Numbered from the stretch's first letter, positions 24,352-31,379 are shown. The stretch: 64,000 bases of DNA from Candidatus Neomarinimicrobiota bacterium (GCA_012964825.1 DTTI01000035.1:1-64000); one strand, 5' to 3'. Translations and numbers: made by a program. Notes: generated by a model not told the origin, from the letters alone.

Positions 24352-26649
24352 CTACAGAGAGGAAAGTACTTTCCAGAGGCGCCAGTTAGCACGCCTAGCA
24401 ATGTCCGGCCAGTCGCTGCCCGGAAGAAGAGGCGGAAGTTTTGAGGAGGCTTCCTGATCCCACCTGTTTCCGGCGCCGGAAAGATCCCAAAGGAGATCGA
24501 CTCCATCAAGGCCCAGCTCCACCACAGAAGGATCAGGATCTAAACCGTTATTCTCCAGTATGTTGTCGTGTATCCAGTTTCGATCAGGAAGTGGATCTAC
24601 ATCATAAATGGCGCCTTCACCGAAAACAATATCAAGTTCCACCATGCCGATACCGGTGGTGTTGTTTCCCCTGATCTCGTTATAAGCCACCTCAACTTCA
24701 TCAGCAGCCATTACGAGTATCCCTGTCCCGGAAGGGACAAGACTCACGATAGCACCTTCATCACCAAAGTTTTCATGATTATTGTCGTAAACTCGATTGT
24801 TAACAACTTTACAGTTAAGCGAAATCTTGGAAGGATTGTTGGGAAGCAAGAAAACAAGGATACCAGCGGTGTTATTGTAAACCTCATTATTTTCCACCAC
24901 GGCGTCAACTGAGTTTTCAATTTCGATACCTGCGACATTTCCGTACGCAACACAATTGCGGACAATAATATCTCTTGATTGACCTACATAAATGCCAGCG
25001 TCCCGTACCTTCGTCACCTCGCAGCGCTCAATGGTAACGCCTACACACTCCACAGGATAAACGCCATAAAGTCCCGTTTCGTAAAGGTAGAGATCACGAA
25101 AAGCAATATTAGTACCACCGTTAATCATTAGGCCGTTAGCAGTGTAGTTCCGGACAGCAAATTTCCGGATTTCAATGTTGCTCCCAGAGCCAACCATCCC
25201 ATCCGTGAGAACATGTTTTCCATCTAGAATAGGTCGCTGCCCATCTTCTTCTTCACCCAAGAGAGTAATACCAGAAATATCCATGGTCAATGTTTCGTGA
25301 TAGATTCCAGGCTTTACCAGTACCGTATCACCTGATTCAGCAATGTCAATAGCATCCTGAATGTATTGCCCCTCATTGACCGTAATAACATATCCCTTTC
25401 TCTCAAATACAGTCCTTGGTCGCTCATTAGGCCTTTTGGAAAAAGCTGCAAGTTCGGGTGATTGGTTTTCCAGTGGTGGGACAACATCAAGCCCTGAAGG
25501 AACTGACTTGGGAATCTCCGGCTTTGCCGACTCATCTGTTAGTGAATGCAGAAAAGCAATAAGGTCAGATCGCTCTCTTGGGGTAAGAGTAAAGCTTCGA
25601 ATTTTGTCATCTACATTGGGTACATCCAGTCCCAAACCAGGACCACCTCCCCCGGAATAGAAATCGAGAACTTCATCCAGAGTCTTGAAAACACCGTTAT
25701 GCATATAAGGTGCTGTAAGGGCAACATTGCGTAACGTGGGAACTTTGAATGCACGATTATAATTCTCGCCTTCAATTTCGCCTCGACCTAAATCTGGCGC
25801 TAGCCCTTCCAGATCAGGCACGCCCACAACCTTGAAATCTGGATTCGCAAATGTTGGAATGTTGTGACATTCAAAACAGCGGGTTTTCAAAGAACGAAAG
25901 ACATTAAGTCCGCTGCGCTCCGCATCTAACAAAACTGTTCTTTTACCTCTGGCATAACGGTCAAAGCGTGAATTGTTGGAAATGATGGTTCGTTCAAAAG
26001 CAGCCACTGCATAGCTCACATTCTGAAACGTAACGCCGGGAACTTTACTTCCCCCAAAAGCGCGATCAAACATCCGCACATATTCTGGTATAGCTTTTAG
26101 TTCTCTCACAAGTTCATGGGGGTCTTGCGCCATTTCAGTTTTATCCTGGATAGGATTCGTGGCCTGATCCTCAAGATCGGCTGCCCGGCCATCCCAGAAT
26201 TGACGGTGATTGAACGCAGCGTTCCAAATCGTTGGTGAACCCCGGCGAATGATTGCACCGCCCATCCGTTCTGGTCCAATGCCACTTCCACCCATTCCCA
26301 TGGACTGCCCTCGATTATCCGAAAAACCGAGATCGGGATGGTGACAATGAGCACAGGAGATATCGTTGCTTCCAGAAAGGATAGGGTCAAAAAAGAGCAA
26401 TTGGCCAAGTTCTACTTTTTCTCTGGATTGAGGATTATCCTCTCTCATAGGCATTTCGGGAAAAGGACGATCAAGATTACGGCTCTCCCTTATTTGAGCA
26501 AACAACTCATCCCCCTGACCTTGATTTGCAACATCAAAATCCAAAGAACCACCCGATGGGACATCAAGGCCAGGCAGAGGTAAATAGATAAAGGAAAGAA
26601 AAAGGAGAACGATCAGGGAAAGTGCTACGCCAAAAGAGTCGCGTTTCAT
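24352..26649 (-). CDS. Di-heme cytochrome c peroxidase fused to a parallel beta-helix domain
   Basis: A 765-residue exported protein. After an N-terminal membrane or signal segment (residues 8-25), residues 60-372 form a bacterial di-heme cytochrome c peroxidase domain with heme sites C99/C102/H103 (ISCAHCHH) and C258/C261/H262 (RCFECH), and the family segment TLRNVALTAPYMHNGVFKTLDE. After a proline-rich linker, residues 420-720 form a right-handed beta-helix opening with YIQDAIDIAESGDTVLVKPG and continuing with NosD/pectate-lyase-like rungs such as GVTIERCEVTKVRDAGIYVG and AGIEIENSVDAVVENNEVYN. Typical peroxidases end near residue 370, so the C-terminal half is an added domain, perhaps binding carbohydrate. 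The combination is uncommon. Confidence 0.85.
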   Translation of the reverse strand: MKRDSFGVALSLIVLLFLSFIYLPLPGLDVPSGGSLDFDVANQGQGDELFAQIRESRNLDRPFPEMPMREDNPQSREKVELGQLLFFDPILSGSNDISCAHCHHPDLGFSDNRGQSMGMGGSGIGPERMGGAIIRRGSPTIWNAAFNHRQFWDGRAADLEDQATNPIQDKTEMAQDPHELVRELKAIPEYVRMFDRAFGGSKVPGVTFQNVSYAVAAFERTIISNNSRFDRYARGKRTVLLDAERSGLNVFRSLKTRCFECHNIPTFANPDFKVVGVPDLEGLAPDLGRGEIEGENYNRAFKVPTLRNVALTAPYMHNGVFKTLDEVLDFYSGGGGPGLGLDVPNVDDKIRSFTLTPRERSDLIAFLHSLTDESAKPEIPKSVPSGLDVVPPLENQSPELAAFSKRPNERPRTVFERKGYVITVNEGQYIQDAIDIAESGDTVLVKPGIYHETLTMDISGITLLGEEEDGQRPILDGKHVLTDGMVGSGSNIEIRKFAVRNYTANGLMINGGTNIAFRDLYLYETGLYGVYPVECVGVTIERCEVTKVRDAGIYVGQSRDIIVRNCVAYGNVAGIEIENSVDAVVENNEVYNNTAGILVFLLPNNPSKISLNCKVVNNRVYDNNHENFGDEGAIVSLVPSGTGILVMAADEVEVAYNEIRGNNTTGIGMVELDIVFGEGAIYDVDPLPDRNWIHDNILENNGLDPDPSVVELGLDGVDLLWDLSGAGNRWDQEASSKLPPLLPGSDWPDIARRANWRLWKVLSSL

Positions 26650-26747
26650 TTAGGGATGGATAAAGTGTTTAATCCAGAAGGAGTTTAATAGTTAACTTTC
26701 GGACGGTGAAGTGGTTTTTTCCCTTCTCCGCTTTTGAAATCTATCCC

Positions 26748-27575
26748 ATGCTCGATCAAACCAAAATCCAGATTGGCCATCGGAAATATGAGGTGAAACT
26801 TGAAGAAGGAATCTCTATTGCAATCCAACTTGATTTTCAAGGTGATCAACCCCGGTTTTTTGAAAGTGAGAATGCCCATTCGATCCCTGTACAGTCTGGA
26901 GGCTTTATTGGTTCGGTTCAAGCCGGCGGAAGCTGCAACGTGGATACCATAACCGCTAATTATCACTGCAATGGTACCCATACTGAATGTGTTGGACACA
27001 TATCCGAAGATCAGGTCTCAATTTCCAACATTATTGATAACAGCCTGATTCCAGTCACACTTATCTCTATGGACGCTTCAAAGATCGGCGATGAATCATA
27101 CCATGTTTCTACAGAAAACAATGATTACTTACTGACGAAGTCTTGTCTGACCCAAGTTCTCGAAAATGCTAATACAGATTTCCTGAAGGGGCTCGTCATC
27201 CGAACTCTACCCAATGAAACCTCAAAAAAATCACACAATTACTCCGAGAAATCGTTTCCTTTCTTTACGAATGAAGCCATGCATCACATCAGAATTCTCG
27301 GCGTTCGCCATCTGCTGGTGGATACGCCCTCCGTGGATAGAACAGATGACGGCGGAGAGCTTGGAAATCATCGGATCTACTGGGGCGTATCTCCCGGTAT
27401 TTCCAAAATCGATTCTCAAACTTGTTCTAAAAGGACAATTACAGAAATGATTTACACTCCCGATTTGCTTCCGGATGGCTGTTATCTAATGAACCTTCAG
27501 CTTCCCGCTTTCGTTTCTGATGCCGCTCCCAGCAGGCCAATCCTCTACCCTGTTAATAAAGTCAATGATCACTGA
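26748..27575 (+). CDS. Cyclase-family hydrolase (kynurenine formamidase-like)
   Basis: A 275-residue protein of the metal-dependent cyclase family that includes bacterial kynurenine formamidase KynB and isatin hydrolase. The zinc or manganese motif is visible as HCNGTHTECVGHI, matching the family HxGTHxD/E pattern, and the C-terminal half has RILGVRHLLVDTPSVDR and the later HRIYWG. ATG 26748 is chosen over an upstream GTG at 26706 because it begins at the family start. It overlaps the indoleamine-dioxygenase-like gene by 11 nt. Since that enzyme makes N-formylkynurenine, hydrolysis of this product is the natural role here, though the protein is longer and more divergent than typical KynB. Confidence 0.78.
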   Translation: MLDQTKIQIGHRKYEVKLEEGISIAIQLDFQGDQPRFFESENAHSIPVQSGGFIGSVQAGGSCNVDTITANYHCNGTHTECVGHISEDQVSISNIIDNSLIPVTLISMDASKIGDESYHVSTENNDYLLTKSCLTQVLENANTDFLKGLVIRTLPNETSKKSHNYSEKSFPFFTNEAMHHIRILGVRHLLVDTPSVDRTDDGGELGNHRIYWGVSPGISKIDSQTCSKRTITEMIYTPDLLPDGCYLMNLQLPAFVSDAAPSRPILYPVNKVNDH

Positions 27576-28692
27576 ATTGCTTAAAAGATTTTCAGTTGAT
27601 CAAGAACGTGGTTTTCTTCCCAATCCCGATCCTCTTCTAGCACTTCATCCACTGTTTGAGGTGTGGGATGAACTCGGGGCGGAGATGCCATCCCTGCTTG
27701 CCAAAGGCAATTTTCGCTTAGCTGTGGAAAATCTCCCCTTAATCCACGCTGATAAACTTAAAGATGACTCTGAGTTAGACAGGGCTATGCTGTTGTTGTC
27801 CATGTTTGCCAATGCCTATATCAGCTGTGACCCAGACCCGGTAAGAAAAATCCCCTTGGCTCTTGCTGTACCGTTGTCTGAAGTGGCGGCTAGGTCCGGA
27901 CGTCCTCCTATTGCAAGCCACGCCTCAATCGTATTAAACAACTGGCGTCGCGTAAACCCGAAAGGTCCCATTGAGCTGGAAAACCTTAGAACTGTTCAGA
28001 ACTTTTTAGGAGGACAAGACGAGGAATGGTTCTTTCTCACAACAGTTGCCATTGAATCCCTCGGTGCCCCTGCTCTTTCTGCTGTTCTGGATGGACTGGA
28101 AGCTGCTGCCTCATCTAATAACAAAAATTTCGTTGATGCCATAGAACGGATTGGAAATGCTATAAACAATTGTACCAACGTTCTGGACCGTATACCGGAA
28201 AAATGCGCGCCTCATATCTTTTATTCTCAGATACGCCCCTTCCTGGCCGGATGGCCAGAGGAAGGAATTATTTATGAAGGTGTGAGTGACGAACCAAAAG
28301 TTTATATTGGCGGAAGTGCGGCACAAAGTTCACTTTTGCAGTCTATCGATGCGGCGATGGGAATTTTTCATCCTCATGCTGATTCGGGACCTTTTCTGAA
28401 GAAAATGAGAAAATACATGCCACCCGCCCATCGTAAATTCATTGAATACCTTGAAACGCAACTTTCCTTGAAAAAATATGTTGAGCAAAATGAAAGCCGT
28501 GAGTTGAATGATGCACTCAATAGTTGTATCAGTACGCTGGACAGTTTTAGAAAGAAACATATGCAGATTGTTGTCCACTACGTTCTTGATCAAGTCAAAG
28601 ATGAAGAAAATGTCATTGGAACGGGGGGTACAGAGTTTGTCGCCTTCCTATCTCGAACCAGAGCCGAAACTTCGGAGAACTTAATTTCATGA
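27565..28692 (+). CDS. Indoleamine 2,3-dioxygenase family heme protein
   Basis: A 375-residue heme dioxygenase related to eukaryotic IDO. Diagnostic segments are IFYSQIRPFLAGW (the distal-site Phe and Arg of IDO are conserved), GGSAAQSS, MRKYMPPAHRKFI, the proximal heme histidine H332 in KKHMQIV, and the C-terminal GTGGTEFVAFLSRTRAET loop. These match the human enzyme closely by eye. The family inserts O2 into the indole ring of tryptophan or analogues, giving N-formylkynurenine. ATG 27565 is chosen; it overlaps the cyclase gene, and the stop overlaps the next gene (ATGA), so the three genes are translationally coupled. Cytoplasmic, no signal. IDO homologues are less common in bacteria than tryptophan 2,3-dioxygenase. 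Confidence 0.92.
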   Translation: MITELLKRFSVDQERGFLPNPDPLLALHPLFEVWDELGAEMPSLLAKGNFRLAVENLPLIHADKLKDDSELDRAMLLLSMFANAYISCDPDPVRKIPLALAVPLSEVAARSGRPPIASHASIVLNNWRRVNPKGPIELENLRTVQNFLGGQDEEWFFLTTVAIESLGAPALSAVLDGLEAAASSNNKNFVDAIERIGNAINNCTNVLDRIPEKCAPHIFYSQIRPFLAGWPEEGIIYEGVSDEPKVYIGGSAAQSSLLQSIDAAMGIFHPHADSGPFLKKMRKYMPPAHRKFIEYLETQLSLKKYVEQNESRELNDALNSCISTLDSFRKKHMQIVVHYVLDQVKDEENVIGTGGTEFVAFLSRTRAETSENLIS

Positions 28693-29885
28693 ACTCGTTT
28701 GAAGGAAAGTGTACCACTTGCCCCGGTGGGTGTGCTACCGATGAAGATGCAGGTTTCATGATCACAGAACAATTCGGGCCATTCAATCAGAAAAACGATA
28801 TTTTCAACCGTTCCTTCTGGGACCCGTCAATTCACTCAGAAAAGACAGAACTTTTTTATGAATCGTATCGTAAACCGCTGGAAGAGTGGCGCCACGTGGA
28901 TGGTTATGATCAGAAAGATTTTGCTCTCCGTAATGCTGGCTGGTACGTGGCTGATTTTTTCGCCGAACGGCTGGAGAATGAGGACCGCCGGGAAGGATTT
29001 CTGGATTACCTCACCTCCCAAAGGGAGGGTGCTTCAGAACAGCGAAATGTTGAATCTCCTGAGGCTATGGCAGAAGAAGTAAAGAAAGCCGCCAAACTTT
29101 TTGGTGCTGATCTTGTGGGCATCACTTATCATGATGAACGGTGGGTCTACACGCACAAGTATAGTCGAGACCATGAAGACGAGAAAGAGATGGATCTTCC
29201 GGATAATTTCGTTTCTGTAATTGTAGTATGTCATGAGATGGACCACGATTTGCTGGAGACCGTCCCATCAGCTCTAAGTGGAACAGCAACGGGCGTTGGC
29301 TACTCTCAAGATGCTATCACACTTCTTGCCCTTGCTCAGTATATCAAGAATCTCGGTTACAATGCCGTGGCCAGCATGAACGATACGGCTCTCAGCATTC
29401 CTCTAGCTATTAAAGCCGGGTTAGGAGAATACGGCCGTCACGGGCTTTTAATTACACCAGAACTTGGTCCTCGTCTTCGTATCGGAAAGGTTTTTACTGA
29501 TCTTCCTCTTGCACACGATCGCCCGAAACGGTTCGGCGTAAAAGAATTTTGCGAGATATGCCGACGGTGTAGTGATGGTTGTCCGACGAAAGCTATTCCA
29601 TTTGATGATCCATCAGAACGTATCTACAACAGTTCCAATATTAGTGGTATCAGAAAATGGACAGTGGATGCGGAAAAGTGTTTCGACTTCTGGGTGAAGC
29701 AGGTGACCGACTGTTCCATCTGCCTCCGCGTCTGTCCCTACAATCGTGATTATCCCTCCTGGGTAAACCGCCTACGGTTTCGACTAATGGGGTCGTTCCT
29801 CCGCAGCTTTATGCTATGGCTGGACAACACCTTGGGAGGCGGGAAACGAAAAACGCCCAGATGGTGGTGGGAGAAAAAAGATTAA
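28689..29885 (+). CDS. Reductive dehalogenase-like iron-sulfur protein, cytoplasmic
   Basis: A 398-residue protein resembling the catalytic subunit of reductive dehalogenases. The central NDTALSIPLAIKAGLGEYGR and GLLITPELGPRLRIGKVFTD stretches are typical of RdhA, as are two [4Fe-4S] sites (C288/C291/C294/C298 and C331/C342/C345/C349, the latter in CSICLRVCPYN) and a tryptophan-rich C-terminus. There is no Tat signal and no membrane anchor gene, so it is cytoplasmic. An extra N-terminal Cys cluster (C8/C11/C15) is unusual. RdhA enzymes need cobalamin; whether this one binds it cannot be read reliably. The epoxyqueuosine reductase QueG shares the fold but differs in motif spacing. It is coupled to the IDO-like gene by a 4-nt overlap. 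Confidence 0.78.
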   Translation: MNSFEGKCTTCPGGCATDEDAGFMITEQFGPFNQKNDIFNRSFWDPSIHSEKTELFYESYRKPLEEWRHVDGYDQKDFALRNAGWYVADFFAERLENEDRREGFLDYLTSQREGASEQRNVESPEAMAEEVKKAAKLFGADLVGITYHDERWVYTHKYSRDHEDEKEMDLPDNFVSVIVVCHEMDHDLLETVPSALSGTATGVGYSQDAITLLALAQYIKNLGYNAVASMNDTALSIPLAIKAGLGEYGRHGLLITPELGPRLRIGKVFTDLPLAHDRPKRFGVKEFCEICRRCSDGCPTKAIPFDDPSERIYNSSNISGIRKWTVDAEKCFDFWVKQVTDCSICLRVCPYNRDYPSWVNRLRFRLMGSFLRSFMLWLDNTLGGGKRKTPRWWWEKKD

Positions 29886-29922: not shown

Positions 29923-31080
29923 TCAGACGGCCTCAGACATTCCAAGTATTACTGTTTTCACCGTCTCATAAACGCGATGTAAACTTCTAGCGCTCACCCA
30001 TTCATCGATGGCGTGAGCACCATGTCCAATGGGACCGAAAAGGACTGAGGGGATACCCGCTTCAGAAACCAGTGCCGAATCAGCCCAGTAGGACATGCCC
30101 GTGAGGTATGAAACAGGTGACGCTTTCCTCAATCGTTGGACAATTTCAGTGGTCTCCAAAGTTTCCATAGGCGGACGGGCGAACAGCTTTTTCGGCTCAA
30201 CTCTATGCTTCCCAGGATAGTTTTTCGCCGTGGAAACAATTCGCTCATATTCTTTCTCCAGATCGGCATCTAATTCTCCCGGAAGAATCCTTCGTTCCCA
30301 ATCTAGCCTTGATTCGGCTGCGATAACTGGAAGATTAGTTCCACCCATTAATGTCCCAACATGAAGCGAACTGTGTCCGAGATAGGGGTGGGCATCTTTT
30401 GCATACAATTTTTTCTCCACTTCTGAAATTTCTTGAATCACAGCTCCAAGTGGAAAAATTGCATCGATTCCTTCCTCAGGACGAGAACCGTGGGCAGCTT
30501 TCCCCTCAATAACTATCTCATACCAGGCAAACCCCTTGTGACAGATGCCAATAGACTCTTCTGTAGGTTCCAGAATGATGGCGGCAGTTGGTTTTTCCTT
30601 TAGCGTTGGAAGCCAATCATTCATGAGGTGTTCCATCCCTATGCTCAAATCTTCTTCATCGCACACAAAAGTCAGATGGACATCACCCGGCGGTGGCTCC
30701 TTCGCAAAAAACTTGCCAAGAGCAAGCATGACAGACACACTACCTTTCATATCATATGTCCCTCTGCCATAAAGTTTGTCACCATCCCGGCGGAGCTTAA
30801 ATGGATCATTCATCCCCTCCACACCCACAACATCCACATGTGCATTCAATATGAGACTTGGTGCACCCCTACTCCCAGAAATTGTACACACCACGTTGGT
30901 CCGTCCAGGAGCAACTTCTTGAGTCTCTGGAATAAACCCCAATGAGGAAAGAACACCGGATATATTATCACAAACAAAAGCCTCACCAGGGCCCCCTTCC
31001 CATTTGGGGTTTACTGAATTAGAAGCCACCAAATCAGCTAAAAATTCTTCAATACATTGTTCTAACGAAAAATCAACCAT
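29923..31080 (-). CDS. M20-family metallopeptidase/deacylase (ArgE/DapE-like)
   Basis: A 385-residue zinc-dependent amidohydrolase of the M20 family, which includes acetylornithine deacetylase and succinyl-diaminopimelate desuccinylase. Metal ligands are visible in NAHVDVVGV, GRGTYDMKGS, and FVCDEEDLSIG (catalytic and metal-binding glutamates), with IILEPTEESIG further on. A dimerisation lid domain spans about residues 175-290 (KAAHGSRPEEGIDA). No signal peptide is present. ATG 31080 overlaps the stop of the upstream Dabb gene, so the two are coupled; GTG at 31083 is an alternative start. The substrate is unknown: an N-acyl amino acid or dipeptide. Confidence 0.85.
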   Translation of the reverse strand: MVDFSLEQCIEEFLADLVASNSVNPKWEGGPGEAFVCDNISGVLSSLGFIPETQEVAPGRTNVVCTISGSRGAPSLILNAHVDVVGVEGMNDPFKLRRDGDKLYGRGTYDMKGSVSVMLALGKFFAKEPPPGDVHLTFVCDEEDLSIGMEHLMNDWLPTLKEKPTAAIILEPTEESIGICHKGFAWYEIVIEGKAAHGSRPEEGIDAIFPLGAVIQEISEVEKKLYAKDAHPYLGHSSLHVGTLMGGTNLPVIAAESRLDWERRILPGELDADLEKEYERIVSTAKNYPGKHRVEPKKLFARPPMETLETTEIVQRLRKASPVSYLTGMSYWADSALVSEAGIPSVLFGPIGHGAHAIDEWVSARSLHRVYETVKTVILGMSEAV

Positions 31081-31379
31081 CACAACTCATAGTCCACCAC
31101 TCGGACTTCCTCTGTCAACGGCTGAAGTAAAGCCACAACTTTCAAGTGCTCAGGATGATCCTGATATTTTTTCAGCTTTTCCATGGATTCAAACTCAGAT
31201 ACAAGAACCACATCAGAGGCACGTTCTGACGGATTCACATTGATGCCTACTTCCAATGCTTTGATTTCTTTGATCAGATCAGGAAGTTTAATGATCTCAG
31301 TCTTGATCTTAGAACCACTATCATTTTTTGTCTTCCCCTCAATCTTCTTTAAACGCCACATAACAATATGCTTAATCAT
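31080..31379 (-). CDS. Dabb-family (stress-responsive A/B barrel) protein
   Basis: A 99-residue ferredoxin-like dimeric barrel protein. It begins MIKHIVMWRLK and contains the family pattern LVSEFESMEKLKKYQDHPEH near the C-terminal half. ATG 31379 is chosen because GGAG lies just upstream (ACAGGAGACACAATG); a longer in-frame extension exists but has no such site. Dabb proteins are small dimers of mostly unknown function; some act on aromatic polyketides. It precedes and is coupled to the M20 peptidase gene, but the link is not understood. Confidence 0.85.
   Translation of the reverse strand: MIKHIVMWRLKKIEGKTKNDSGSKIKTEIIKLPDLIKEIKALEVGINVNPSERASDVVLVSEFESMEKLKKYQDHPEHLKVVALLQPLTEEVRVVDYEL

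Follow-up and report, generated by a model that had tools for sequence, protein, structure and literature searches.

Ros_A3X954 of Roseobacter sp. MED193 is a reductive dehalogenase (RDase) without a Tat signal that converts 2,6-dibromophenol to 2-bromophenol, and the Fe-S motifs reported for it are CDICTKCADACP and CAICMRVCP (PMC13101508). According to work cited in that paper, a 72% identical relative deiodinates 2,4,6-triiodophenol. NpRdhA, BhbA and JtRdhA are also cytosolic and non-respiratory enzymes, and PceA of Sulfurospirillum multivorans is a respiratory one. The substrates of the catabolic RdhAs characterised by 2023 were ortho-halogenated phenols (PMC10463259). For the opening of the tryptophan ring, the closest described proteins are the IDOs of family PF01231, with human IDO1 and IDO2 and bacterial and archaeal members, and the KynB arylformamidase (TIGR03035). 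A literature search returned no papers that join RdhA with Marinimicrobia or Binatota.

The locus analysed here lies in the genome of a marine member of the Marinimicrobia (SAR406; Fidelibacterota), within a stretch of 64,000 nucleotides that is referred to as the window. Three genes follow one another on the plus strand: a cyclase-family (PF04199) gene for a predicted kynurenine formamidase (26748..27575, 275 aa), a gene for an indoleamine 2,3-dioxygenase (IDO; 27565..28692, ATG at 27565, 375 aa), and a gene for a Tat-less, single-domain reductive dehalogenase of the RdhA type (28689..29885, ATG at 28689, 398 aa). The cyclase and IDO genes overlap by 11 nt and the IDO and rdhA genes by 4 nt (ATGA), and these ORFs, coordinates and overlaps are the same as those given in an earlier, sequence-only reading of the window. 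All three ORFs are full length and intact, with the catalytic residues kept. The three genes appear to form one translationally coupled operon, for which we infer a shared transcript from the gene layout. Upstream, a divergent spacer of 98 nt (26650..26747), which is likely to be the promoter region, separates the cyclase gene from a minus-strand gene (24352..26649) encoding a 765-aa MauG-type di-haem cytochrome c peroxidase fused to a NosD-like right-handed beta-helix. In G003 and G007, too, a peroxidase/beta-helix gene with about 80% identity diverges from the cyclase gene. Downstream, a gene for an M20 peptidase/deacylase (29923..31083, minus strand) is convergent with rdhA. G002 and Marinimicrobia TCS55 (L067) likewise have an M20 gene adjoining rdhA, and such a gene lies beside or near rdhA in several Marinimicrobia (L056, L064 and L067, the last being of a different family, with 51% identity). 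No cobalamin riboswitch was found in the 64,000-nt window, where the sole RNA match was a tRNA at 19-92.

The assignment of the second gene is clear from the profile search, in which the protein matched PF01231 with E=2.9e-103. Its alignment with human IDO1 and IDO2 covers the whole length. The hallmarks pointed out in the sequence-only reading were all located: the proximal, haem-ligand histidine is H332 within FRKKH (328-332), and the loop motifs GGSAAQSS and GTGGTEF lie at 249 and 352. The equivalents of human F226, R231 and the GGSA loop are kept, and human F227 and S167 are replaced by Tyr and Thr, respectively. The window protein shares with the human, bacterial and archaeal IDOs of PF01231 the full-length match, the haem-ligand histidine and the substrate loop motifs; it differs from them in coexisting with a TDO in the same genome and in sharing an operon with rdhA. 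In two other Marinimicrobia genomes (L034 and L137), the IDO gene directly follows a gene that resembles glycine C-acetyltransferase by inspection, and in one of the two a threonine-dehydrogenase-like gene, likewise identified by inspection, lies ahead of it.

The cyclase matched PF04199 with E=1.3e-11 and carries the metal motif HCNGTHTECVGH at 73-84, together with LGNHR and TITEM. It has the cyclase fold family and metal ligands in common with KynB, and its homologues share the kynurenine-pathway context. However, it falls far below the cut-off of the KynB equivalog TIGR03035 (29.6 vs 223 bits) and hence is not a member of that equivalog; in its HxGTHxD motif, Glu stands where Asp is usual. 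A search against solved structures by sequence gave no match. In related genomes, homologues of the cyclase adjoin kynureninase, 3-hydroxyanthranilate dioxygenase (3-HAO), KMO or TDO genes: the distance to kynureninase is 27-36 bp in five related genomes, and in four further ones the cyclase homologue lies beside TDO. This gene context of the homologues strongly suggests that the window cyclase is a formamidase, and the PF04199 match, the metal ligands and the pathway context all agree with a predicted kynurenine formamidase activity.

The same genome has a kynurenine-pathway operon on contig 40 (L140:6496-15366), which encodes a KMO-like monooxygenase, kynureninase (459 bits against a cut-off of 246), an amidohydrolase that is ACMSD-like by inspection and not by family match, 3-HAO, a Rid-type protein, an aldehyde dehydrogenase nearest to 2-hydroxymuconic semialdehyde dehydrogenase, NadC, an SDR and TDO. 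No formamidase was seen in this operon. The window cyclase, of which the genome yielded no second copy, would fill this gap. In the pathway that can be proposed from these genes, IDO would convert L-tryptophan to N-formylkynurenine, the cyclase-family metallohydrolase would convert N-formylkynurenine to kynurenine, and kynurenine would feed the complete 3-hydroxyanthranilate/quinolinate-type pathway of contig 40. The motifs and the pathway context thus favour the earlier proposal that the first two genes provide the first two steps of tryptophan ring opening. The genome has two tryptophan openers, TDO on contig 40 and IDO in the window. TDO and IDO occur together also in two other genomes (G066 and G100).

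The third protein scored 190.4 bits against the NCBIfam reductive dehalogenase family TIGR02486 (cut-off 160.35) and 25.7 against PF13486 (cut-off 24.3). In the alignment with PceA, its residues Y205, N231 and R264 correspond to the catalytic Tyr246, Asn272 and Arg305. The cysteines of two [4Fe-4S] motifs lie at 288/291/294/298 and 331/342/345/349. Across 89 family sequences, neither the Tyr/Asn/Arg triad nor any of the eight cluster cysteines varies. The N-terminal 60 residues contain no Arg-Arg motif, and no apparent RdhB membrane-anchor gene adjoins rdhA, the neighbours being the IDO and M20 peptidase genes. The protein accordingly lacks both marks of a respiratory RdhA, a Tat signal and RdhB next door, in agreement with the earlier description of a Tat-less RdhA-like protein. 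PceA is similar in its fold, in the equivalents of the catalytic triad and in the two [4Fe-4S] motifs, but the window protein has no Tat signal and shows 29% identity to the PceA-type protein used, which is from Sulfurospirillum sp. 'SP'. With NpRdhA, BhbA and JtRdhA it shares a cytosolic and non-respiratory character; those proteins contain a vestigial duplicate of the cobalamin domain, in many cases a reductase fusion, and Lys488, whereas the window protein is a single domain of 398 aa and its family has Arg instead (PMC10463259). Corrinoid use is plausible because the genome encodes two further proteins with B12-binding domains.

The earlier reading had allowed that the third protein might prove to be an epoxyqueuosine reductase, and this identity was rejected. 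The score against the QueG family TIGR00276 was 62 bits, far below the cut-off of 200, and a separate QueG-like gene is present in the same genome on contig 55. An AF2 model built from 36 relatives (pLDDT 81, pTM 0.87) gave TM-scores normalised by query (TMq) of 0.63-0.75 against PceA and NpRdhA and of 0.37-0.39 against QueG.

A broader alternative is that the third protein is a relative of RdhA that does not dehalogenate and reduces, for example, another epoxide or a thiol-linked metabolite as QueG does. QueG itself shows that the same fold can serve another reaction, and many of the host lineages of the family are not known dehalogenators. The subgroup that holds the window protein also has an N-terminal CxxCxxxC motif (C8, C11 and C15; 28710..28733, plus strand), which such a role might explain. 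We nevertheless regard this alternative as unlikely, since the dehalogenase profile is above its cut-off and the QueG profile far below, the triad of PceA is invariant, and proven debrominating family members share their motifs with relatives that are 50% identical to the window protein. The CxxCxxxC motif, which may bind an additional metal or cluster, is present in 11 of 88 aligned sequences (63-87% identical; the subgroup includes L057-L062 and L067) and absent from the other 77.

The family to which the window RdhA belongs is widespread. A scan of 84,980 species genomes gave 311 relatives, and the best 80 of the 311 are 57-87% identical. The hosts of these best 80 are Acidobacteriota, Gemmatimonadota, Binatota, Myxococcota, Chloroflexota, Deinococcota, Calditrichota, Latescibacterota, SUP05/Thioglobus-type Gammaproteobacteria, SAR324 and Marinimicrobia. 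Of 399 genomes sampled evenly across the phylum to which a SUP05-type genome belongs, 7 matched, and two of these seven (L173 and L174) encode proteins with 50-52% identity to the window RdhA that carry CDICTKCADACP and CAICMRVCP, the motifs of Ros_A3X954. In L174 the motifs begin at residues 283 and 337, which are the positions published for Ros_A3X954. The PF13486 region and the two Fe-S motifs occupy 174-269, 283-294 and 337-345 in Ros_A3X954 and 177-274, 288-299 and 342-350 in the window RdhA. Like Ros_A3X954 and A0A2T7UTL8 of Pararhodobacter aggregans, the window protein is single-domain and Tat-less, and the kinship rests on motifs and positions; it differs from both in host phylum, gene context and the N-terminal CxxCxxxC. 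The features of the Ros_A3X954 type, namely the lack of a Tat signal, a length of about 390 aa, the layout and the kinship, are found through L173 and L174 and not through the sequence of Ros_A3X954 itself. On these comparisons, the window RdhA is best placed as a member of a cytosolic, halophenol-type dehalogenase family. In the tree, the PceA and BhbA sequences fell inside the family on long branches; these are possibly false joins and were left out of the argument. A second RdhA-like group, with 31-37% identity, occurs in other Marinimicrobia families (L008-L012) and is separate in the tree.

This placement bears on what the enzyme would act on. The sequence-only reading had speculated that RdhA might remove the halogen from an intact indole substrate, that is, from a halogenated indole or tryptophan before ring opening. 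The shared operon and the presence of brominated indoles in the sea would suit such a reaction, but the catabolic RdhAs characterised by 2023 acted on ortho-halogenated phenols (PMC10463259) and indole has no phenolic OH. Together with the distribution described below, this makes dehalogenation of the intact indole very improbable.

The conservation of the coupling was analysed on the best 80 of the 311 RdhA loci, with flanks of up to 8 kb on each side where the contig allowed. Neither IDO nor the cyclase was found near RdhA in any of the 80 loci, and only 5 of 47 genomes with RdhA have any IDO. G002, which belongs to the window's genus and is 91% complete, carries an RdhA with 87% identity at this same site, with the same arginase-family and M20 genes on either side; neither IDO nor the cyclase nor TDO was found in it. 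G001, of the same genus, has a different RdhA (59% identical) elsewhere in the genome, whose nearest neighbour in the tree is from SAR324. G003, of a sister genus, retains the peroxidase and cyclase genes together with an IDO truncated at about 215 residues, with no rdhA. In G007, the peroxidase-cyclase pair ends at one contig edge and rdhA lies at another, in a matching order, so that the trio may predate one species. From the arrangements in G002, G003 and G007, the trio was probably present in the ancestor of this Marinimicrobia family and was disrupted on at least two later occasions. A conserved IDO-RdhA pair is ruled out on the 80 loci and 47 genomes. The coupled genes, the ring-opening steps and the Tat-less RdhA of the earlier reading hold, while its expectation that the three genes stay together in relatives, as a conserved pathway, fails on these data; the trio is, as far as gene order indicates, a family-level arrangement and not a general pathway. 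Clustering of the neighbouring ORFs gave no partner of RdhA common to most loci, where GC-rich loci have noisy ORF calls and shadow ORFs made spurious clusters. Among plasmid-borne sequences, the best relatives reached about 33% identity for RdhA and 37% for IDO, in haloarchaea, and none was found for the cyclase.

The same distribution weighs on the idea that the operon encodes one pathway, in which IDO and the formamidase open 6-halotryptophan and RdhA dehalogenates a downstream product so that the pathway can continue. A halogen on C6 of the tryptophan indole is carried over to C4 in 3-hydroxyanthranilate, where it is ortho to the hydroxyl group. KMO and kynureninase encoded elsewhere would make 4-halo-3-hydroxyanthranilate, an ortho-halophenol that would inactivate 3-HAO, and RdhA could protect the pathway on 6-bromotryptophan because the known substrate of its family is an ortho-halophenol. 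The location of IDO, cyclase and RdhA genes in one operon is consistent with this idea, as are the presence of the downstream genes including 3-HAO in the same genome, the debromination of an ortho-halophenol by the RdhA family (PMC13101508), and the use of 4-chlorokynurenine as a prodrug of 4-chloro-3-hydroxyanthranilate (PMC8027791); a paper cited in the latter has inactivation of 3-HAO by 4-chloro-3-hydroxyanthranilate as the subject of its title. In addition, marine animals contain brominated indoles and 6-bromotryptophan derivatives, and with both IDO and TDO present, one of the two could be a specialised opener. If this reading were true, a reductive dehalogenase would be a detoxifying step serving amino-acid catabolism. 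However, the 0 of 80 loci and 5 of 47 genomes argue against it, as do the RdhA of G002 at the same site without IDO, cyclase or TDO, and the IDOs of other Marinimicrobia that occur without RdhA, such as those after the threonine dehydrogenase- and glycine acetyltransferase-like genes. We therefore consider a single halotryptophan pathway to be quite unlikely. Salvage of bromotryptophan, in which RdhA would debrominate 4-bromo-3-hydroxykynurenine or 4-bromo-3-hydroxyanthranilate, the expected inactivator of 3-HAO, is similarly doubtful.

It is reasonably probable, instead, that two separate functions, tryptophan opening and halophenol dehalogenation, are joined in one family-specific operon. 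RdhA would then be a cytosolic 'catabolic' dehalogenase of the Ros_A3X954 type, dependent on B12 and two [4Fe-4S] clusters and supplied with electrons by some soluble donor, and would most likely strip Br or I ortho to the phenolic OH of scavenged marine halophenols. The joining of IDO and cyclase with RdhA would have arisen within one Marinimicrobia family. Two points count against this explanation of separate functions: RdhAs vary widely in substrate, and the gene overlaps could reflect a genuine functional link in this family.

Read in this way, the results document two things: Marinimicrobia with a full kynurenine pathway can have IDO as well as TDO, and a family of cytosolic RdhAs extends across Acidobacteriota, Gemmatimonadota, Binatota, SUP05-type Gammaproteobacteria, SAR324 and Marinimicrobia. 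The relationship of this family to an enzyme with proven bromophenol debromination suggests that dehalogenation outside respiration is widespread. At several Binatia loci (L082 and others), genes for a radical-SAM protein and a methyltransferase, both resembling arsenosugar-type enzymes, are located close to the RdhA-family gene.
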